Source: a virus. From it: a DNA stretch of 37,347 nucleotides. The position numbers and the translations under genes were made by a program. Under the pieces are notes generated by a model, which saw nothing but the letters and a program-made list of their open reading frames with translations, was not told where the DNA came from and did no database searches. The stretch is from positions 1 through 37,347 of IMG/VR virus record IMGVR_UViG_3300035670_000655, one strand, 5' to 3'. Below are positions 15,022 through 37,347 of the stretch, in pieces. Position 1 is the stretch's first letter, and every line of letters starts with the position of its first letter.

Positions 15022-17223
15022 TCAAAACAGCCTCTTTTTAGATAGTTCTGCTTCCTCGAATGAAAGGTTATCTACGGCTTGTTTCCAATAGGATTCTTTA
15101 AGTTCCATACCAAGAAACCTGCGCTCCATTTGCAGAGAAACAACCCCTTCTGACCCGATGCCTCCGAATGGCGAAAGCACGATATCACCTTTGTTTGACC
15201 AGAGGCGCAACGCCCGCTCGATTACTTCTAGTTGAAGTGGGCAGATGTGGCGCTCGTCCTCGTCAGCTCTCGCCGAGCGATGTTGAAGCGTCTTGGATGG
15301 TTTGATATCCATCCAAACAGGCGAAGCGTATTCCTGCCACTCCTGAACCGGGAACGATTCATTTGTGTTCACGACAGGATTGGGATTATTTCCCGGCTTC
15401 CTCATCGTTACTAGGTAATCTGGTATTCCTTGGCGCGACATACAGGCGTCCTTTTTGAGTTGCTTGTGTAGAAGTCCGAGCGCCTTGGTGCGCTGCATGG
15501 CGGTAACTGGATCTTTCCAAATGGTTACTTCGCTGTGGTAAATGAATCCAGCGGCTTGAAATATTCTGATAAGATCGCCGCGGAAGTCGGTAATTCCGAT
15601 GAAGCCATCGCGGCACTTGGACGTTGGAAGATTCATGCAATGGAATGAAAGGTTGCGTCCTGGCTTTGTAACCCTGAACAAGTCAGCCGCGAGGAACTTC
15701 ATGTGATCGTAAAATTGCTGATGCGTGACGCAATTTCCCATGTCACGTTCGCTCGATGAGTAGGTATAAAGCGAAGCGAATGGAGGAGAGAAGATGCTAA
15801 AGTCGATTGATTCTGAATCGACATCTTTTATTAGCTCGCAACAATCTCCCAAGCGCATCACCCATGATTTACCTGATTCACTTTTCTCTTTGTAATCGAC
15901 TCGAGATTGAACGGCGTGTTCGATGTTAGCACGGCAAAGCTCGTGTGTTTGTGAGATCATGTTTTCCTGCATTGATTTGAACTCCGACTCTTTACGTTTG
16001 ATGTTTTCGACGATCATATCTTCGCGTGATCCCGTGATGACATGAACGACGACTCTCCTAGTCTGCCCGAATCTCCAGCATCGCCTGACTGCCTGGTAGT
16101 ACTGTTCAAACGAATCAGACAGTCCAACAAAGATCATTCTGGCGCAATGCTGCCAGTTCATTCCGAACCCTGCGATTGATGGCTTTGTTACTAGGATCTT
16201 GTAGCGCCCTTCCGAGAATCCTGTCAGCCGATCTTCCTTCTCGTCCGGTAAGTCCGAGCCTTTAATCTCGGTTGATCCTTCGATCAGTTTTCTGAGCATA
16301 TCGCTTTCCGAATTGAGATCACACCAAACTAGCCATGGTTCATCTGGATCGGCGCTGATTATTTCCGCTGCCTTGGCGCATCGAGCTTCTAGCGACGCCG
16401 ATCTAGCTTCTCGTCTTTCCTCTAATCCTCCGACTACTGGTGATCCGCTCAATGCTAGTGTTTTCTTCCCGCCGACAACGTGTTCTTTGATTTCAAGTGA
16501 TGGCAGATCAAATCCGCTGTCGTCGAATCCTAGATCAGACGGCTTTGTTATCATGACTGCCCATGATGAAACCCATCTCCAGAACGGTTCAACTGCGTGG
16601 CCTTTCAACCGCCAATCGGAGGTAGATCCGCCGTCATGAACAAAATACATGGAAAGCATCTCATGACGCTTCATCACGCCAAGAAACTCGGAATGTGTTC
16701 CTAGCTCGATGTGATCGTTCGGCGCTGGCGTTGCCGTGCAGCAAAGACGATATGGCGTTTGCGAAAACATCTCTGTTAGCATCTGGCGAAATTTTCCTTC
16801 ATGATGCTTGATGATGCTTGACTCGTCCAATACTACAGCTTGGTAATCGTCTGGGTTGAAATGCTCGATCATCTGGTAGTTTGTTATAGTAATCGGCAAA
16901 TCACTTGGCTTCCTCGAATATCCAACTTCTTCGATTCCGAACTTTATCGCTTCTCTTACTGTCTGCTGTGCAACGGCCAGCGGCGCTACGATTAACACCT
17001 TCCCGCCTGTTTTAAGATGAACCTGACGACACCACTCGAGTTGCATCGCGGTCTTGCCCATACCTGTTCCGGCGAAGACAGCGCAGCGGCCTTGTTTTAC
17101 CGCCCATTTGACGATTGCTTTTTGGAACGGAAAAAGGATTTGATTCAATTCAGCATCGTGAACATCGAATCCGCTAGGAAAGATCGCCGGAATTTTTTCC
17201 GAAAGAAACTGCTGGTAATTCAT
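15022..17223 (-). CDS. SF2 helicase - DNA methyltransferase fusion
   Basis: A 733-residue two-domain enzyme. Residues about 1-420 are a superfamily 2 (SNF2/DEAD-type) helicase: Walker A GTGMGKT (about 52-58), motif II DESS (133-136), motif III TATP (163-166) and motif VI QAVRRCWRFGQ (377-387). Residues about 455-733 are a DNA methyltransferase with catalytic SPPF (479-482) and, near the C-terminus, the SAM-binding FGGIG (about 686-690), so a permuted amino-methyltransferase of N4-cytosine or N6-adenine type. It may protect phage DNA from host restriction or act in replication. I chose the ATG at 17223, which has GGGAG five bases upstream; an ATG at 17235 has none. Confidence 0.85.
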   Translation of the reverse strand: MNYQQFLSEKIPAIFPSGFDVHDAELNQILFPFQKAIVKWAVKQGRCAVFAGTGMGKTAMQLEWCRQVHLKTGGKVLIVAPLAVAQQTVREAIKFGIEEVGYSRKPSDLPITITNYQMIEHFNPDDYQAVVLDESSIIKHHEGKFRQMLTEMFSQTPYRLCCTATPAPNDHIELGTHSEFLGVMKRHEMLSMYFVHDGGSTSDWRLKGHAVEPFWRWVSSWAVMITKPSDLGFDDSGFDLPSLEIKEHVVGGKKTLALSGSPVVGGLEERREARSASLEARCAKAAEIISADPDEPWLVWCDLNSESDMLRKLIEGSTEIKGSDLPDEKEDRLTGFSEGRYKILVTKPSIAGFGMNWQHCARMIFVGLSDSFEQYYQAVRRCWRFGQTRRVVVHVITGSREDMIVENIKRKESEFKSMQENMISQTHELCRANIEHAVQSRVDYKEKSESGKSWVMRLGDCCELIKDVDSESIDFSIFSPPFASLYTYSSSERDMGNCVTHQQFYDHMKFLAADLFRVTKPGRNLSFHCMNLPTSKCRDGFIGITDFRGDLIRIFQAAGFIYHSEVTIWKDPVTAMQRTKALGLLHKQLKKDACMSRQGIPDYLVTMRKPGNNPNPVVNTNESFPVQEWQEYASPVWMDIKPSKTLQHRSARADEDERHICPLQLEVIERALRLWSNKGDIVLSPFGGIGSEGVVSLQMERRFLGMELKESYWKQAVDNLSFEEAELSKKRLF

Positions 17224-17250
17224 TTTCACTCCCATTTTTTTGAGTGAAAA
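17223..17250 (-). promoter_or_regulatory. Palindrome covering the ribosome binding site of the helicase-methyltransferase
   Basis: TTTTCACTC (17250-17242) and GAGTGAAAA (17231-17223) are perfect 9-bp complements around a 10-base loop. As RNA, the stem would hide part of the GGGAG ribosome binding site and the A of the ATG. As DNA it is a symmetric operator-like site. Either form suggests control of this gene, possibly by its own product. Confidence 0.6.
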
Positions 17251-18944: not shown

Positions 18945-19894
18945 ATTTTCTCCCCAGCAGCGCGACGACGCGCTATAGCCTCATCCGTCCAATGTTCGTT
19001 CTGGTCTTGTGGCACAACGAATTCGTACTCGACAAGCGAGTTCCTGTGGTCGGTTACTTTTTTCTGAGCTGGCGCCCGCTGGTTGAAAGCCCCAGCCTCG
19101 AACTTGTCGAGGATTCCAGCCGAGGTCGCATAATCGAACGTGGCCTTCCAACCTGACGGGTTGTCTCCAAGCCCCCAGGGCCACGCAGAAACGCTTTTGA
19201 ACACAGACCGCCACTTCTCCATGTCCGGCTCCTCTCGGAGCCTAGCGTTGATCCTGCCGGCTCGTGGGACGGATATTTTTGACGGGTTGACTGCGGGCAG
19301 TCTCCCGCGCTCCTGGTTCCATATTTCCATTAGCGCCCGAAGATCCTCTATTGGACGACCGTCTTTTTTTGACCTCCCATTTTTGGCCCCATCGTCCCCG
19401 GCGCCAGCCGGGTGAGAAACGGCAGTTTCGACGAGAGATACGTTAGTATCTCTAATTTCTTCTTTAGGTGTAGGTGTAGGTGTAGGTGTAGGGGTTGACA
19501 TTTTGTTAACGGCATGTGGACGTGTCGTTGACGCCTCCCTCGATCTAGCCGAAGCCAAACCTGCGGCTCTATTCCTTGCCGAAATGCTATCTTTGCTTGC
19601 GATTCGCTTGGCATTTCCAGAAATTTCAAACCTTTCTTCCCCTACCTCTTTTAGCAGACCAGCGGCCTCTAATGCGCGGACAAAAAGAACATCCTTTTTT
19701 TTTGAATTGCGTGTTCGATCCGACGCGGTAAACTGGATGAATTCCGAAAAAGTGACCGTTAGCAATCTTGCTTTTTGCGTCGTCTGCCAAAGCAATATCA
19801 ACGCGCCAACGATCTCGCGCTTACTCATCCCCGTCGCCGCCATTATGATCTCAACGTGACCCTCGAGAAGAAATTCATCTGCCAGGTATGCCAT
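18941..19894 (-). CDS. Replication initiator / replisome organiser
   Basis: A 317-residue protein. Residues 1-110 look like a winged-helix domain (GMSKREIVGALILLWQTTQK). Residues about 112-145 are a basic, then Pro-Thr repeat linker. The C-terminal domain (LMEIWNQERGRLPAVNPSKI .. DNPSGWKATFDYATSAGILD) matches the C-terminal region common in phage replication proteins that recruit the helicase loader. It precedes the DnaC-like gene and overlaps it by four bases. Origin binding by the N-terminal domain is inferred. Confidence 0.75.
   Translation of the reverse strand: MAYLADEFLLEGHVEIIMAATGMSKREIVGALILLWQTTQKARLLTVTFSEFIQFTASDRTRNSKKKDVLFVRALEAAGLLKEVGEERFEISGNAKRIASKDSISARNRAAGLASARSREASTTRPHAVNKMSTPTPTPTPTPKEEIRDTNVSLVETAVSHPAGAGDDGAKNGRSKKDGRPIEDLRALMEIWNQERGRLPAVNPSKISVPRAGRINARLREEPDMEKWRSVFKSVSAWPWGLGDNPSGWKATFDYATSAGILDKFEAGAFNQRAPAQKKVTDHRNSLVEYEFVVPQDQNEHWTDEAIARRRAAGEKI
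19465..19493 (-). repeat. Hexanucleotide repeat coding Pro-Thr linker
   Basis: Plus strand shows tandem taggtg units; on the coding strand they read CCTACA and give a Pro-Thr dipeptide run in the replication initiator linker. Because the unit is six bases, copy number can change without breaking the frame, so the linker length may vary between relatives. Confidence 0.85.
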
Positions 19895-20139
19895 TAGGCC
19901 ATACCTCGCGCTTTAAGGGCGTCACGATAACGCTGGCACTTTGCCTCAGACTCGGCAAGAATCGCGTTGTTTTGTTCGCGGCAATATGCTTCGAAATCGT
20001 TCGGGTGGATTACCCAGGCTCTTGAGATTTGCCGCGCCGCCAGCGACTTTGACCAAATCGCGTTGTAGATCCGCATGGGATTGCAGTTGATCAATTTGGC
20101 GCAGTCGTAGACCGAAAGCATTTCCCGTTCTGTGATCAT
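19894..20139 (-). CDS. Excisionase/MerR-type helix-turn-helix protein
   Basis: An 81-residue DNA-binding protein. Residues 8-55 (LSVYDCAKLINCNPMRIYNA, then AWVIHPNDFEAYC) follow the HTH_17/excisionase pattern: helix-turn-helix, short wing, then 'V...DLe.y'. With no integrase in the genome it is more likely a transcription or replication regulator than a true excisionase. It is the first gene of the replication block; its stop and the next start overlap as TAATG. GGAGGTGAT precedes the ATG. Confidence 0.75.
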   Translation of the reverse strand: MITEREMLSVYDCAKLINCNPMRIYNAIWSKSLAARQISRAWVIHPNDFEAYCREQNNAILAESEAKCQRYRDALKARGMA

Positions 20140-20283
20140 TTTATCACCTCCAAAGTGGTTGAGTTTATCGAGCCTATAGCGGCCTTTTTGGAAAAAAAAG
20201 CGGATTGTGACGCTTGCTAAAAATACTCTTCATTTTTTCTCGTTGACGACTATGATCGAATAACACATCAACGGAGGGCCATT
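20140..20283. promoter_or_regulatory. Divergent intergenic region between the replication block and the protease unit
   Basis: A 144-bp AT-rich gap with genes leaving on both sides. On the plus strand tatgat (20251-20256) could be a -10 box, about 12 bases before a likely transcript start, with GGAGGG (20273-20278) placed well for the protease ATG. No good -35 box at the usual spacing is clear; ttgacg at 20242-20247 is too close. On the minus strand a promoter is expected but I cannot point to one with confidence. Confidence 0.4.
20143..20156 (-). repeat. Shared 14-bp leader element, copy 1
   Basis: ACTTTGGAGGTGAT just before the HTH gene start is identical to the sequence before the YqaJ gene start (27093-27080). 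It contains the ribosome binding site. The identity extends past the Shine-Dalgarno core, so the two early blocks may share a leader that is controlled in the same way. Confidence 0.6.
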
Positions 20284-21243
20284 ATGTCAAAGATCGCGTT
20301 TGTGCTTCTGTTTGTCCCGGCTATCGCTATGGCGGCTGATTGGATCGGCGCCGATGGGCCGACCTACAAAACCAAGGAGGGCTTTCGCGGCGACGAATAC
20401 GCGACTGGCCTCGTGATCCCCAGCGATTGGGAATCCCGCCGCGCCCCGGCTCCGAAGGACGCCTATTTCTACCGCGGCGAGCTTCCGAAAAAATGGGATT
20501 GGCGCGAGCATAACGGCGGCATCGGGCCGATCCGAAACCAGGGCAATTGCGGGTCGTGCTGGGCGTTCTCAGCCTATGCCACGATGTCGGACGTGCTGGC
20601 GCTCCACGGCAAAGGCGTCCAGGATCTCAGCGAACAGCATCTCGTGTCCTGCGACAAAAAGAGCTACGGTTGCCAAGGCGGCTGGTTTCATACGGGGTTC
20701 GAGTTGGTGAAAGCCGAAGGCGATGTTCAAGAGTCTGTCTTCCCCTACAAGGCGCAGGATCTTAGCTGCCCTGCATCTCTTCCCCACGGAGACAAGATCG
20801 TTTCTTACCGAGAACTCGCCAACGGTGTCGCCGGCGTCGAAGACATCAAACGGGCCATCTACACCTACGGCCCCGTGTCGGTAGCAGTCAGCGCGACCGG
20901 CGACTTTGGCAGCTACTCGAGCGGTATCTACAATTCGGCGACAAGCGGCGCCATCAATCACGCCGTCAACCTCGTCGGATGGGACGACACGGCGCAGCCC
21001 CCGCATTGGATCATGCGTAACTCGTGGAGCGCATCGTGGGGCGAATCAGGCTATATGCGGATCGCCTACGGATCGAAAAAGATCGGCTACGCGGCGACCT
21101 ATATCGACGTGTTCGGCCCGATCCCGCACGACAACCAGCCCGATCCGACTCCGACGCCAGATCCGACACCTGGCCCCGGCCCAAACCCGGAGCCGTGTGA
21201 ACCTTGTACCTTTTGGCGCTGGATCAAAAACCTGTTCGACTAA
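20284..21243 (+). CDS. Secreted C1A papain-like cysteine protease
   Basis: A 319-residue enzyme. Residues 1-17 form a Sec signal peptide with likely cleavage after AMA. Residues 18-69 are a short pro-region, shorter than in papain. The peptidase domain has oxyanion Gln86, catalytic Cys92 in GNCGSCWAFS, His226 in AINHAVNLVGW and Asn246 in RNSWSASWGESGYM, plus the LSEQHLVSCD and GCQGGW landmarks of family C1A. So the catalytic set is complete. Residues 285-306 are a Pro-rich linker ending CEPC, then a short WRWIKNLF tail. It is one of only two plus-strand genes and begins after GGAGGG. Targets are unknown: export from the host or action in the envelope are both possible. Such proteases are rare in phages. 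Confidence 0.92.
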   Translation: MSKIAFVLLFVPAIAMAADWIGADGPTYKTKEGFRGDEYATGLVIPSDWESRRAPAPKDAYFYRGELPKKWDWREHNGGIGPIRNQGNCGSCWAFSAYATMSDVLALHGKGVQDLSEQHLVSCDKKSYGCQGGWFHTGFELVKAEGDVQESVFPYKAQDLSCPASLPHGDKIVSYRELANGVAGVEDIKRAIYTYGPVSVAVSATGDFGSYSSGIYNSATSGAINHAVNLVGWDDTAQPPHWIMRNSWSASWGESGYMRIAYGSKKIGYAATYIDVFGPIPHDNQPDPTPTPDPTPGPGPNPEPCEPCTFWRWIKNLFD

Positions 21244-21256
21244 ACCAGGAGGAACG

Positions 21257-21493
21257 ATGAAAGCCATGATGCTCGCAATGTTCGTTGCTATGTCTCCGAT
21301 GACCGCCGCCGCGTTTACCTCTGATTGCGATTGCGACTGCGATTGCGATTGCGATTGTGGTGACTGCGATGGCTGCGACGGCGGCTGCGATTGTGGCGGC
21401 TGCGACGGCGGCTGCGATTGTGGCGGCTGCGACGGCGGCTGCGACGGCGGCTGCGACGGCGGCTGCGATGGCGGCGGATGTAATCCTGGCTGA
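21257..21493 (+). CDS. Secreted Cys-Asp-Gly repeat peptide
   Basis: A 78-residue peptide starting 13 bases after the protease stop, with AGGAGG before the ATG. Residues 1-19 are a Met/Ala-rich signal peptide with likely cleavage after TAAA. The mature part (about 59 residues) is almost only Cys, Asp and Gly: six Asp-Cys pairs in a row, then CDGG and CDCGG units, ending CNPG. I count 18 Cys and 16 Asp. It has no aromatic or basic residue after the signal apart from one Phe. High thiol and carboxylate content suggests metal binding or heavy disulphide formation. I know no family for it. The repeats (tgcgacggcggc-type units) may vary in number. Confidence 0.85.
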   Translation: MKAMMLAMFVAMSPMTAAAFTSDCDCDCDCDCDCGDCDGCDGGCDCGGCDGGCDCGGCDGGCDGGCDGGCDGGGCNPG

Positions 21494-21509: not shown

Positions 21510-21538
21510 AAAAAAGCCGGGAGCGACCCGGCTTTTTT
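21510..21538. terminator. Strong bidirectional intrinsic terminator
   Basis: Six A, then gccggg (21516-21521), loop agcga, cccggc (21527-21532), then six T. The 6-bp GC stem is perfect and extends with A-T pairs. It works on the plus strand for the protease unit and, because of the A-run, also on the minus strand for the accessory block that ends at 21548. Confidence 0.93.
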
Positions 21539-23274: not shown

Positions 23275-23590
23275 CTACTTCCACCTCTATCTCAGCCCAC
23301 CCAAGATGGGGCGCTATTCCCTGTCCGACAGTCTTCTGCGAGCTGAAGATTCCAGCGATATAATAAACTCCATCCTGCTTGCGAACGCTGCCGTACAACG
23401 TCACCTTCCGCTTTTGCTTCGGAGGTTCGACTTGTTCCCATTCTCCAGCCATCATCGAGCTATTGATGTAGTTTGGATTTGACCCGCTCACAAATCCTCC
23501 ATCTAACCACCTGTAGGTTGGTTGATAACCTACCAACCTACACTCCCACCCATCTTCCTGCATATGCTTCAGGGCTTCGTGGAATTTCAT
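23267..23590 (-). CDS. DUF2829/Tad2-like candidate
   Basis: A 107-residue protein. It starts [20 protein letters not shown], then a tryptophan strand (TYRWLDGGFVSGSN) and MMAGEWEQVEPP. This order recalls the phage family that begins 'FxeALkal+eGkkvrR' and ends its core with 'DWEv', which includes Tad2 anti-Thoeris proteins. The resemblance is partial, so the anti-defence idea is only a lead. Residues 65-107 form a separate beta-rich part. The ATG at 23590 overlaps the previous stop as ATGA. Confidence 0.5.
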   Translation of the reverse strand: MKFHEALKHMQEDGWECRLVGYQPTYRWLDGGFVSGSNPNYINSSMMAGEWEQVEPPKQKRKVTLYGSVRKQDGVYYIAGIFSSQKTVGQGIAPHLGWAEIEVEVDE

Positions 23591-24396
23591 TCGTATTTCT
23601 CCCAATCAATATCGTGAAATGTCGCTGCGTCGAAAAACATCTGCTCAAGAAGATTGTTTTGTGCGTCCCAAGCTGCGGCCCCAGCTGCGTCCCTAGCTGC
23701 GGCCCCAGCTGCGTCCCAAGCTGCGGCCCTAGCTGCGGCCCCAGCTGCGTCCCAAGCTGCGTCCCCAGCTGCGGCCCCAGCTGCGGCCCCAGCTGCGTCC
23801 CCAGCTGCGGCCCCAGCTGCGGCCCAAGCTGCGGCCCAAGCTGCGGCCCCAGCTGCGTCCCTAGCTGCGGCCCCAGCTGCGTCCCAAGCTGCGTCCCTAG
23901 CTGCGGCCCCAGCTGCGTCCCAAGCTGCGTCCCTAGCTGCGTCCCTAGCTGCGGCCCTAGCTGCGTCCCTAGCTGCGGCCATAGCTGCGGACAATTCATC
24001 GGACGTAATCGCTCCTATTTGGAAGCGCCGCATAGCTTCAACTGCTGCGTTCGATCTCTTATCGTCTGCCAAATGCAAAACATCTTCCGCACAGCAGCAA
24101 GCGAACTCGCGAAGTATATCATCAGCAGGAGCCATCCAAAGAACAGTTCGCTCCGATGCAACTAGTTTGTCCGATCCATGAACGATCTCCCCCGACAACT
24201 TAACTCGGCAGATAATCGCGTCTGGCCAACTCACAAATGAAAGCGCGTCAATTGGTTTAATAGAGGCGTGAAGACCACTACGGTATAGCGATAGTTCTCC
24301 GGTATGCGTGAGCGTTTCACCAACCTTTATTTCCGAAAACGGTTCAAAGCGAAGTTTCTTGTTAGCACTAATAAAGTGCCATGCGAGTATTGTCAT
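23587..24396 (-). CDS. DUF7666-like domain with alanine-rich tandem repeat
   Basis: A 269-residue protein. Residues 1-100 ([16 protein letters not shown] .. [15 protein letters not shown] .. [20 protein letters not shown]) match the DUF7666 pattern seen in many phages. Residues about 136-245 are a four-residue repeat of Ala with Asp/Gly/Arg/Trp ([12 protein letters not shown] and variants), probably a long helix. A short aromatic end ([16 protein letters not shown]) follows. GAGG lies five bases before the ATG. Function is unknown. Confidence 0.75.
23662..23990. repeat. 12-bp tandem repeat, about 27 units
   Basis: Units of the type agctgcgtccca / agctgcggcccc repeat through this stretch. They code the alanine-rich tetrapeptides of the minus-strand gene. 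The unit lacks stop codons in several frames, so other frames (Pro-Ser-Cys-Gly on plus, Gly-Thr-Gln-Leu on minus) are open by chance. Unit number is likely to vary between relatives. Confidence 0.93.
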
Positions 24397-27142: not shown

Positions 27143-27559
27143 TTATAAAGGATAAATTACTGCCACCAAGTCTTTGCGGTGCGCCGCTTTCCGGCATCGG
27201 ATATATGCATTCTTGAGGATTGCCGCCTCGAGATCCGAGACATCTGGCCCGCCGCCCCCGGCTTCGATTATCGTGTCCCGATCAATGAGCATGGCGACGT
27301 GTGTAATGTCGGCATCGGATCTGCCGTAGAAGACCAGCGCTCCCGGCTCTGCATGGTCGCGCCATCCGCGAAGCGAGTCGCTGAAATACTCAAACAACTG
27401 CTGCGCCGTCTGATCACCAGGAGGGTCTTTCCCCATCGCCGCCAACAACTCCTGCACAAGGCCGCTGCAATCCCAACCGGCCATTGGATCATCGCCGCCC
27501 CATTTGTATCGCTGACCGACAAATGACATCGCGTAGAGTTTAAGCATCTCATTATTCAC
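27143..27559 (-). CDS. NlpC/P60 peptidase, probable endolysin
   Basis: A 138-residue enzyme cutting peptide stems of the cell wall. It has YKWGGDDPMAGWDCSGLVQE with catalytic Cys31, and DITHVAMLIDRDTIIEAGGG with His87. No signal peptide is visible, so a holin would be needed for release. I chose the GTG at 27559 because AGGGGG lies five bases upstream; other starts are a TTG at 27574 and an ATG at 27547. It lies just after a terminator at the end of the lysis block. Confidence 0.82.
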   Translation of the reverse strand: MNNEMLKLYAMSFVGQRYKWGGDDPMAGWDCSGLVQELLAAMGKDPPGDQTAQQLFEYFSDSLRGWRDHAEPGALVFYGRSDADITHVAMLIDRDTIIEAGGGGPDVSDLEAAILKNAYIRCRKAAHRKDLVAVIYPL

Positions 27560-27575
27560 GGCGCCCCCTGACAAG

Positions 27576-27637: not shown

Positions 27638-27889
27638 TCACAAACGAGCATAGCCCTTTTTTTTGGCCCGCGCAATCTCGTCCTTCATGGCGCGGTAGCG
27701 TTGTTCACGCTTTGCCTCGTTAGACAAGATGCGCCTAATGGCTCTGGCCGCCCTCGGCTCCGACCTGACTTCACTTGGGACATCTCCGCTAACGGTGCCG
27801 GTGATCTCGCCCCAAATCCAGTCGATGATCTTCTCGATCACCCATGGGCCGATGACTTTCAAAAGCCACCAAAAAACGACCTGCCACAT
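27638..27889 (-). CDS. Small membrane protein, holin candidate
   Basis: An 83-residue protein. Residues 1-28 (MWQVVFWWLLKVIGPWVIEK..) are very rich in Trp, Val and Ile, forming one membrane segment. The C-terminal half is strongly basic (RAARAIRRILSNEAKREQRY). A one-segment protein with a charged tail next to the endolysin fits a holin or related lysis factor, but no family is recognised. It overlaps the upstream stop as TAATG. Confidence 0.5.
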   Translation of the reverse strand: MWQVVFWWLLKVIGPWVIEKIIDWIWGEITGTVSGDVPSEVRSEPRAARAIRRILSNEAKREQRYRAMKDEIARAKKKGYARL

Positions 27890-28149
27890 TATTTCGTCAC
27901 CAACGAGATGATGGCGTCAACGACTTCAGTAATCTTGGCAAACAGCGCCTCGATCTCCTGGTCATCGAGTTCCTTGAGTTCGGAGGGAATCAGCGAGCCG
28001 CCCTCGACGGCGCTGCGGATCGCCTTCATGACGGGGACGAGCTTCGGGATGTCGAAAACGTCAATCTGTCCGTTGGCCATCGCCGCTTTATACTGTTCCA
28101 CCAACACCAGGGCCGAGTCGAGAACTTCCATCGTGTTCTTGGTATCCAT
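27889..28149 (-). CDS. Helical hypothetical protein near lysis genes
   Basis: An 86-residue acidic helical protein (MDTKNTMEVLDSALVLVEQY, then FDIPKLVPVMKAIRSAVEGG). Similar short helical proteins sit near holin or tail genes in other phages but have no firm function. The ATG at 28149 has GGAGG seven bases upstream; the longer open frame lacks this. Confidence 0.65.
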   Translation of the reverse strand: MDTKNTMEVLDSALVLVEQYKAAMANGQIDVFDIPKLVPVMKAIRSAVEGGSLIPSELKELDDQEIEALFAKITEVVDAIISLVTK

Positions 28150-28177
28150 CGCATAACCTCCTTGCAAGGGTTTGGGA

Positions 28178-28813
28178 TTAGTATATCTCATCGAACATGA
28201 CGCGACCAGCGTAATAAAGATCATCTGGCGTGAAGGCCGTGATGCCGTGCGTCTTCGACGGGCGAAGATCGTCAACCGTCAAGCCAGAGGCCAATACATA
28301 GAGCAGTTCGCTGCAATAAAGATCGGTCTTTTTTCCGTTCAAATCTAGTTGATAATCGTATTCGATCTCGTCCCGTCGCGCTTTGATCTCGGCCACTCTA
28401 ACCCAAAACGAGGCGTAGGCTTCGGCGTTTCTCAACGGAAACCACAACAACGCCATGCCATCATTCTCGCGCATGACGTTTACTAAGTAGTCATCCTCGA
28501 GGCCGCTATTTTGCATATGGAGAACCTGAAGTTCTCCAGAGGCTCCGACATAGACTAGGCCCGCATGACCCCAACGGCATCCCGTCAACGCATGGTTTAG
28601 CCTGTAGTTCAAAACGTGTTTATCCACAGAGACAAACGCCAGGAAACCATACTCGCCGGCCTTTTCGGCGGCCATTCGCCGCATCAAAAAATAGCGGCTC
28701 ATTGGCAGCTTCGGCCAACCCCAAACCCTCGTAGAAAAATAGGCTAGGTATTTTCTCGCAAACGCCCGCCAGATCGCACTACGAACTAAGAGCGACATGA
28801 TAAAGCGAAGCAT
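28178..28813 (-). CDS. YiiX-like permuted NlpC/P60 protein
   Basis: A 211-residue protein. H83 lies in CRWGHAGLVYVG, and Cys167 in DLYCSELLYVLASG with E169, the order (His before Cys) of YiiX/YebB-type permuted papain-fold proteins. Residues 1-30 are hydrophobic and basic, and could anchor it to the membrane. Such proteins may cut cell wall peptides or amide or ester bonds; the substrate is unknown. It is encoded among lysis and envelope genes. Confidence 0.7.
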   Translation of the reverse strand: MLRFIMSLLVRSAIWRAFARKYLAYFSTRVWGWPKLPMSRYFLMRRMAAEKAGEYGFLAFVSVDKHVLNYRLNHALTGCRWGHAGLVYVGASGELQVLHMQNSGLEDDYLVNVMRENDGMALLWFPLRNAEAYASFWVRVAEIKARRDEIEYDYQLDLNGKKTDLYCSELLYVLASGLTVDDLRPSKTHGITAFTPDDLYYAGRVMFDEIY

Positions 28814-35994: not shown

Positions 35995-37347
35995 TCAAGC
36001 CGTCCTATAGCCGAGGCGGTTGAGGTCAATCAACACGCGGGACAATTCGCGTTCGCCGACTTTCAAAACGACGTTGATCGGCCCGTTATTCCCCGGCTGG
36101 CTTGGCTGGACGCTTACCCCTCGTTCGCGTTCAGCCTTGTCGAGAAATGCAGACAGCCGATCAACGTCACCTCTGGGAATGATCATTTCGCCAGAGGTCA
36201 ATCTGGCAGGGAAAGAGTCGTTAGCAAATCCGCCCGGAACGACGCCGCCCGTCGCATATCCTCCGACGACCGGAACCCAATCGGGAACAATGCCGCCGCC
36301 GGATGCAGCGTTGGTCAACACTCCACCGGGCGAGAAGTTTACAAACTCCCTGATGGCCTTGATAAATGGATCCATCCACTCTGGCGTCGGAATCCGCAGG
36401 GCGTTAAGCCACTCTGGGTTGACGATTCGCGCCGGAATCCACCAATCCTTCATCGCCTCGCGGAATCCCCTGGCAATGCCATCTCCCACCGCACCAACGA
36501 TCGTCAACATGGCGTGGTACATCCCGACGACGAGCGCCTGGGCGATGCGTGGCATCGCTAAAATCAACGCCTTGATGATCCGCTCTAGCCCGCCCTCGAT
36601 CAGAAGGCTGTCGATCAGGGCTTCGATGATGACAGACGAGGCCGCGGCAAATCCTTCGACGAGGGCGAGAATTATCTCGTCCAAGTTATCAAGGATGCTA
36701 ACCAACACGTCGGGAAGTACCTTGACGATTTCCGCGATCACTTCGCCGATCATCAACAAGCCCGAGCGGATGATGTCGGGAAGGTTTTTCAAAATCGCCC
36801 ATACGATTGCGGGAATCGCTTTGATGAGCGGTTTTAGGATCTTCGGGATCTGAGCGAAAATTTTCGGAACCATTTTTAAGAGGGAATCCACCAGCCCCGG
36901 CAGGACGCGGGCGAGCGTCTTTGCCATTTTTGGCAACACGGTGCCGAAAATTTTTGAAATCAAAATAGGCAACCGCTGCAAGACGGACGAGAGCAATTCA
37001 GGGATGCGATCTACGACCCTAAACAGCCCCTTGTCGAGGTCTTCGAGCATCTGGCCGAGCATCCCATCGAGGTTTGACAACGCTTCGATGAATGCCTTCG
37101 GCGCGTTCAGTACGGCAAACAATCCATCTGCCAACTGATTGATAAATGCCCCGCTAAAGAAATCAACGAACACGGCTGACATAATATCGACGCCAGCGGA
37201 AACGCCGTCGCTGATCGCCGATGTGATGTTTTGGAACGTATCGACCGCGAGCTGGATTTGATATTGCTGTTCTTCTAGCTTCTTATCCCGCTCCTGCTTC
37301 AGGGCTTCCCGCTCTGCTTCTTCTTTCCCGGCGTTAATATCAACCAT
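35995..37347 (-). CDS. Tape measure protein, C-terminal part (begins at 1705)
   Basis: This is the rest of the 976-residue tape measure protein; bases 37221-37347 are the duplicate of 1-127. The part has long hydrophobic helical stretches (VLPKMAKTLARVLPGLVDSL, IPAIVWAILKNLPDIIRSGL) and near the end GGYATGGVVPGGFANDSFPA followed by RLTSGEMIIPRGDV, the conserved signature of many siphovirus tape measures. The apparent start at 37347 is not the gene start; the frame continues through the join to the ATG at 1705. The hydrophobic helices may help DNA cross the host membrane. Confidence 0.93.
   Translation of the reverse strand: MVDINAGKEEAEREALKQERDKKLEEQQYQIQLAVDTFQNITSAISDGVSAGVDIMSAVFVDFFSGAFINQLADGLFAVLNAPKAFIEALSNLDGMLGQMLEDLDKGLFRVVDRIPELLSSVLQRLPILISKIFGTVLPKMAKTLARVLPGLVDSLLKMVPKIFAQIPKILKPLIKAIPAIVWAILKNLPDIIRSGLLMIGEVIAEIVKVLPDVLVSILDNLDEIILALVEGFAAASSVIIEALIDSLLIEGGLERIIKALILAMPRIAQALVVGMYHAMLTIVGAVGDGIARGFREAMKDWWIPARIVNPEWLNALRIPTPEWMDPFIKAIREFVNFSPGGVLTNAASGGGIVPDWVPVVGGYATGGVVPGGFANDSFPARLTSGEMIIPRGDVDRLSAFLDKAERERGVSVQPSQPGNNGPINVVLKVGERELSRVLIDLNRLGYRTA
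37221..37347. repeat. Terminal direct repeat, right copy (circular overlap)
   Basis: Exact duplicate of 1-127. Remove one copy to obtain the circular unit genome. Confidence 0.95.

Follow-up and report, generated by a model that had tools for sequence, protein, structure and literature searches.

A complete phage genome was found to carry, on the strand opposite to its other genes, a two-gene unit encoding an exported papain-family (C1A) cysteine protease and an exported repeat peptide rich in Cys, Asp and Gly. The protease lies within a phage-dominated lineage of C1A enzymes whose members are often found beside endolysin genes, and it is tentatively proposed, as a reading possible if still short of probable, that it cuts proteins of the host envelope, most likely aiding lysis or virion release, with the peptide serving as an optional thiol or metal buffer. 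The window, that is, the whole stretch of 37,347 nucleotides analysed, begins and ends with an exact 127-bp terminal repeat (positions 1-127 and 37221-37347), and its 976-aa tape-measure gene is open across the junction after trimming one repeat copy. It is a complete phage genome, with a circular form of 37,220 bp. Terminase, portal, tail, RecE/RecT and replication genes were also identified, no integrase or repressor was found among the genes scanned, and the window holds no RNA families or tRNAs.

The original prediction had described the protease and peptide genes as adjacent, as the only plus-strand genes, and as provided with strong ribosome binding sites and a strong terminator, and this layout was confirmed throughout. 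The protease stop codon is separated from the peptide ATG by 13 bases, strong Shine-Dalgarno sequences (ACGGAGGGCC and CAGGAGGAAC) precede the two genes, and the remaining long plus-strand ORFs are all antisense to minus-strand genes. The terminator after the peptide gene has A/T tracts on its flanks and a stability of about -18 kcal/mol on either strand and, being about equally stable on both, probably also serves the converging minus-strand genes. A consensus scan returned only the minus-strand form of this hairpin, and terminator-type sites in the window were no more numerous in that scan than expected from shuffled sequence. Since no sigma-70 consensus promoter was found upstream of the protease by a consensus scan, the promoters of the intergenic region shared with the divergent neighbour are presumed. 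That neighbour encodes a small HTH_17-type protein which could possibly regulate the unit.

Table 1. Position and description of the features of the two-gene unit and of related genes in the window
Feature	Position	Strand	Description
Small HTH_17-type DNA-binding protein, divergent neighbour	19894-20139	-	PF12728, E=2.6e-5, below gathering cut-off
Presumed divergent promoter region, HTH gene (-) / protease (+)	20140-20283	.	Intergenic, gene-free, 144 bp
Protease ORF	20284-21243	+	319 aa, exported C1A (papain family)
Protease signal peptide	20284-20337	+	MSKIAFVLLFVPAIAMA-A; Lys, hydrophobic core, AMA/AAD cleavage site; read from sequence
(Y)xTGLxxPxxW segment, aa 38-66, probable mini-propeptide	20395-20481	+	Motif common to viral and bacterial relatives
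Catalytic domain, aa 67-275	20482-21108	+	Pfam envelope 67-269
Pro/Asp-rich linker, CEPC and amphipathic Trp-rich C-terminal helix, aa 276-319	21109-21240	+	Helix CTFWRWIKNLFD
Cys/Asp/Gly peptide ORF	21257-21493	+	78 aa, exported; AGGAGG ribosome binding site, signal peptide
Tandem-repeat core of peptide gene	21323-21477	+	6-bp unit, then 12/27-bp units; Tandem Repeats Finder
Bidirectional intrinsic terminator between converging genes	21510-21538	.	12-bp stem, 5-nt loop
NlpC/P60 endolysin of the window phage	27143-27574	-	PF00877, E=9.4e-14

Some further genes of this phage deserve mention in their own right. A helicase fused to an N6/N4 DNA methylase (15022-17235, minus strand) is 59.6% identical to a protein of BK063673, a phage assigned to Methanosarcinales, and 54% identical to one of Synechococcus phage S-CBS3. 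A 12-bp tandem repeat of 27 copies (23662-23990) lies within the minus-strand gene 23587-24396, where it codes for Ala/Asp/Trp/Arg repeats. Near the endolysin, the minus-strand gene 28178-28813 gave a weak match to a permuted papain-like amidase (C92, E=0.0036, below cut-off).

The unit had been interpreted as moron-type cargo working outside the cytoplasm, and the idea of cargo stands in part, considering that both products are exported, that the unit is oppositely oriented and that its protease gene passes between phages that are not related, whereas the lysogenic conversion that defines the classical prophage moron found no support among the genes scanned, which include no integrase or repressor. 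As for the transcription unit of its own that a moron would have, the pair lies on the opposite strand with its own terminator and shows no sigma-70 consensus promoter.

The protease is a C1A member by every feature tested except the I29 propeptide, and its structure and export are well supported. It matched the Pfam family PF00112 (Peptidase_C1) with E=2.5e-61 and 208 bits, against a cut-off of 20.7, as well as 179 PDB sequences at E<=0.001, the best of which are plant papains and cathepsins. The catalytic residues Q86, C92, H226 and N246 were correctly numbered at the outset and are invariant in an alignment of 33 sequences, and the signal peptides claimed for both products are likewise recognisable. 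An AlphaFold model built with 33 relatives reached a mean pLDDT of 83 and a pTM of 0.77, with the catalytic domain above 90, and Foldseek superposed it on cruzain, papain-like enzymes and cathepsins with a TMt of about 0.9. No Inhibitor_I29 (ERFNIN-type) propeptide was matched by Pfam, and only about 48 residues separate the signal peptide from the catalytic domain; this does not exclude the protein from C1A, because such absence is common among bacterial members. The (Y)xTGLxxPxxW segment, modelled at a pLDDT of about 80-89, suggests a short propeptide, and so does the observation that alignments to procathepsins cover about 30 columns more than those to mature enzymes. At the C-terminus, the Pro-rich linker is followed by CEPCTFWRWIKNLFD, the final part of which was modelled as a low-confidence helix (residues 308-318, pLDDT 53-65), and this amphipathic, Trp-rich tail could hold the protease at a membrane. 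A distant phage C1 protease with no recognised signal peptide (L004:4713-5576) ends in RRKKSFFEWLISLFK, a tail resembling the FWRWIKNLF of the window protein.

C1A peptidases had been described as uncommon in bacteria and phages, which holds for annotated phage records, with four weak matches among 50,697, but not for environmental sequence. A single alignment-based scan of IMG/VR contigs yielded 66 viral metagenome loci, and at least 512 loci were obtained in a genome collection queried with an alignment, of which the best 80 were retained; a single-protein query of the same collection returned no close homologues. The closest relative, the protease of the viral locus L143, is 56% identical over protease residues 4-318 and 67% identical over 206 aligned residues of the catalytic domain, and it retains the C-terminal end as CECTFWGWLATVFKI. 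In a FastTree phylogeny of 140 catalytic domains, unevenly sampled and built by a quick method, the window and L143 sequences paired with a support of 100 and fell inside a branch of 50 sequences (support 99), 46 of them viral and four bacterial, the latter from Oligoflexales, Bdellovibrionaceae and two MAGs labelled Proteobacteria. Fifteen viral sequences, several of them long-branched, fell outside this branch. The predominance of viral members does not result from omitting near bacterial sequences, because the 80 bacterial sequences included were those most like the window protease.

The gene is also mobile among phages, since the L143 phage has a backbone different from that of the window phage and TerL relatives of the latter are without the protease, one of them being G001, which measures 38.7 kb and bears an end repeat of 123 bp. 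These TerL relatives share structural genes only and not the early region, so that no clean comparison of an empty with a filled site could be made, and a helicase-loader scan returned one distant locus. Novelty seems to lie in the phage-dominated C1A branch, its location next to lysis genes and its association with Cys-rich proteins. A search of open-access papers, which represent only part of the literature, gave nothing relevant on phage-encoded C1A proteases that are exported; no such protease appears in the passages of PMC10318531 consulted, and the text of a 2025 survey of viral lytic proteins makes no mention of papain or cysteine proteases (PMC12596118).

At least 15 viral loci of the phage-dominated branch have an endolysin gene no more than about 2 kb from that of the protease. 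Amidase_2 endolysins occur upstream of it in ten loci, mostly directly, and other types within the same distance include M15 (L188, L195 and L177), GH108 (L181) and CHAP (L194) enzymes; L143 has a tail-lysozyme/endolysin-like gene, divergent from the protease, within about 2 kb. A role in lysis or release is favoured: it agrees with the signals for export and with the endolysins near the relatives. It agrees less well with the layout of the window, because the endolysin of this phage lies 6 kb from the unit, on the other strand, and the position of the L144 protease in a replication region also speaks against it. About a dozen viral loci (for example L181:5094-5786, L163:7998-8681 and L189:6735-7490) also encode, near the protease, an exported protein of some 230 aa that matched neither Pfam nor PHROG families and starts 18 bp after the protease in L189. 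A family of small proteins (about 100 aa) is found near endolysins or C1A proteases (window 27889-28275, minus strand; L143:6947-7270; L194:269-553; L180), its mutual similarity being weak; the members scanned matched nothing in Pfam or PHROG.

The best-surviving alternative, though an unlikely one, is that the unit is cargo for extracellular digestion or host fitness, in which a released protease would digest outside proteins such as nutrients, matrix or, if the host is predatory, prey remnants, while the peptide would be secreted alongside without any connection to it. It draws on a related lineage in which an exported metalloprotease follows the protease in eleven loci, with a nuclease-like gene after it; the order endolysin, C1A protease, exported HExxH metalloprotease and small nuclease-like (SNase) gene was recorded in ten phage loci (L005, L006, L008, L009, L147, L149, L151, L153, L155 and L159). 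Relatives of this metalloprotease are present in 195 of 291 sampled Bdellovibrionota genomes, in a search that covered this phylum alone and had no control phylum, a hint that the ordered loci belong to phages of predatory bacteria. The bacterial members of the protease branch include Oligoflexales and Bdellovibrionaceae. However, the TerL of the window phage has a single distant match in the 291 Bdellovibrionota genomes, close chromosomal homologues of its protease are rare in them (1 of 291), and lysis accounts no less well for the endolysins so often encoded nearby. A Bdellovibrionota host is suggested for one related phage lineage and was not borne out for the window phage by the TerL and protease searches.

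The second gene of the unit encodes a peptide whose predicted 18 Cys and 16 Asp were verified, together with 20 Gly, in 78 aa. After the signal peptide MKAMMLAMFVAMSPMTAAA, the sequence consists from D23 onwards of Cys, Asp and Gly only, until the last four residues, CNPG. The repeat codons vary synonymously (Asp GAT 9/GAC 7; Cys TGC 14/TGT 4), with 13 third-position differences, none of which gives a residue other than Cys, Asp or Gly; this variation is weaker as proof of selection than it would otherwise be, because repeat units are copied. No family match was obtained, and searches elsewhere did not find the peptide: viral contigs, scanned three times with DNA patterns, gave unrelated tandem repeats or nothing, the CDCDCDC tracts of other viral contigs being unrelated repeats without export signals. 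It is absent from L143 and from nearly all viral and bacterial protease loci, and none of the best 80 of the at least 512 genome-collection loci has it beside the protease.

Conserved pairing of the protease with a Cys/Asp/Gly-rich signal-peptide gene had been named as support for a two-part system, and the outcome was divided, since the same peptide did not recur, whereas 6 of 57 viral loci encode a different Cys-dense exported small protein no farther than 1.5 kb from the protease; most loci, L143 included, have none. When every locus retrieved was screened for Cys-dense ORFs that are small and exported, five came up, all of them at viral C1A loci (L163, L188, L194, L193 and L181); in L188 a Cys-rich lipoprotein gene starts 12 bp after the protease, and in L163 one ends 28 bp before it. 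With a threshold of at least 7 Cys in 40 aa, set partly post hoc after a first look at the candidates and combined with a crude signal-peptide rule, 6 of the 105 small ORFs with export signals located up to 1.5 kb from the protease qualified, versus 0 of 319 at greater distances or from viral control loci (Fisher p = 2e-4; p = 9e-4 at 8 Cys in 40 aa and a weak p = 0.03 at 6). The independent cases are fewer than six, because L188 and L194 carry sister proteases. The evidence for an association between phage C1A proteases and Cys-rich exported neighbours is therefore good but not final, given the threshold, the signal-peptide rule and this sister pair. Homology of these neighbouring proteins to the window peptide is not demonstrable. 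The C1A protease and Cys-rich lipoprotein of L163, L188 and L194 are accompanied by exported AhpC/TSA/thioredoxin-like proteins, 43-53% identical (L163:7278-7751, L188:7340-7813 and L194:2452-2958); no thioredoxin-like gene was recognised in the window.

The lipoproteins bear on a further, somewhat less likely explanation, superinfection exclusion or receptor removal, in which the protease would clip receptors at the surface or proteins of incoming virions. Neither the infected cell nor the debris it leaves would then bind phage any longer, while the peptide would act as a surface blocker. An exported protease suits this, the Cys-rich lipoproteins of the relatives (L163, L188 and L194) could sit in the outer membrane, and the opposite orientation of the unit permits expression timed apart from that of the other genes. 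However, the window peptide has no lipobox, and no precedent was found in the open-access literature searched. An obligate two-part system of protease and peptide is refuted, under the criterion set at the outset, because the peptide was found in the window only and is absent from the nearest relative. In a weaker form, closer to the original idea, the peptide could be a pro-form regulator, an inhibitor or a decoy substrate of the protease; this possibility, slimmer still, accords with the tight 13-bp coupling, the export of both products and the recurrence of Cys-rich neighbours beside related proteases, but most of the proteases, including that of L143, are without such a partner, and the window protease has a short pro-segment of its own. 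Finally, it is improbable that the peptide is a functionless product of recent tandem-repeat expansion behind a chance signal sequence, the protease alone being important. Its short DNA repeat units (6, 12 and 27 bp), three open plus-strand frames, the failure to find it elsewhere and the 27-copy repeat in another gene of the same phage speak for this. Against it are the intact signals of a gene (an AGGAGG ribosome binding site, a signal peptide, a stop codon and a terminator), the retention of Cys, Asp and Gly despite third-position differences (weakened by unit copying) and the recurrence of Cys-rich exported neighbours at related proteases.

According to the favoured reading, in which envelope proteolysis aids lysis or release, the unit would yield two Sec-exported products. 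A structured pro-segment of about 30 aa would replace the usual I29 propeptide, and the protease would mature in the periplasm or at the cell surface and then cut host envelope proteins, most likely helping lysis or virion release alongside the peptidoglycan-cutting endolysin. It is from genes, export signals, fold, catalytic residues, lineage and neighbours that we infer the activity, compartment, timing and substrates of the protease and what the peptide does. Oxidation or heavy metals acting on the catalytic thiol inactivate papain-type enzymes, and the Cys/Asp/Gly peptide, predicted to be in the same compartment, may act as a thiol or metal buffer that prevents oxidation and metal binding of the catalytic cysteine once the enzyme has left the cytoplasm. 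In other phages its place seems to be taken by Cys-rich lipoproteins unrelated to it and by a thioredoxin-like protein that is exported, and such a buffer would be the simplest single role to cover the peptide, the lipoproteins and the thioredoxin-like proteins.

A broader reading, itself rather doubtful, is that many environmental phages possess an undescribed envelope-proteolysis module, in which a C1A protease beside an endolysin would cut envelope proteins during lysis or release, aided by interchangeable thiol-protecting partners, whether lipoproteins rich in Cys, thioredoxin-like proteins with export signals or a peptide of pure Cys/Asp/Gly repeats. Holins, endolysins and spanins are the usual explanation for how Gram-negative hosts are lysed, and, to our knowledge, envelope-acting proteases have no settled place in it. 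With a phage C1A branch often encoded next to endolysins, the picture would gain a step of proteolysis, or else a weapon used outside the cell, that has been missed by the annotation of cultured phages, and the Cys-rich and thioredoxin-like neighbours raise the question of how a cysteine protease stays active in an oxidising compartment. The peptide, as a compact natural Cys/Asp/Gly repeat, is also of interest for metal binding.

Compared with known systems, the window protease resembles C1A enzymes (papain, cathepsins K/S/L and cruzain; PF00112) in its fold, in the Q-C-H-N set, in the Cys residues of the first two papain disulfides (C89, C130, C123 and C162) and in export as a probable zymogen, but it is phage-encoded, lacks I29 and has a short TGLxxP pro-segment, a Pro-rich linker and a Trp-rich tail. 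Secreted C1 proteases of Oligoflexia/Bdellovibrionota, Zixibacteria and Planctomycetota MAGs share with it the signal peptide, the xGLxxPxxW segment and 41-48% identity; however, they are chromosomal, usually have longer C-terminal domains and, except for four sequences, lie outside the phage-dominated branch. The phage 'peptidase' family phrog_16701 matches the catalytic region (E=2.4e-11), although it covers residues 81-263 only and has no known partner or context. By analogy, phage lysis accessory proteins such as spanins and LysB-type enzymes may offer a functional parallel, being exported or envelope-acting near endolysins and attacking a layer other than peptidoglycan, whereas the window protein is a protease rather than a membrane fusogen or lipolytic enzyme and is encoded outside the lysis cluster. 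The peptide, in turn, resembles metallothionein-like peptides by composition, with about 30% Cys, CxC and CxxC spacing and a repeat without aromatic residues, but differs from them in being exported, strongly acidic through Asp, Gly-rich and a pure tandem repeat with no family match, its metal binding being putative.
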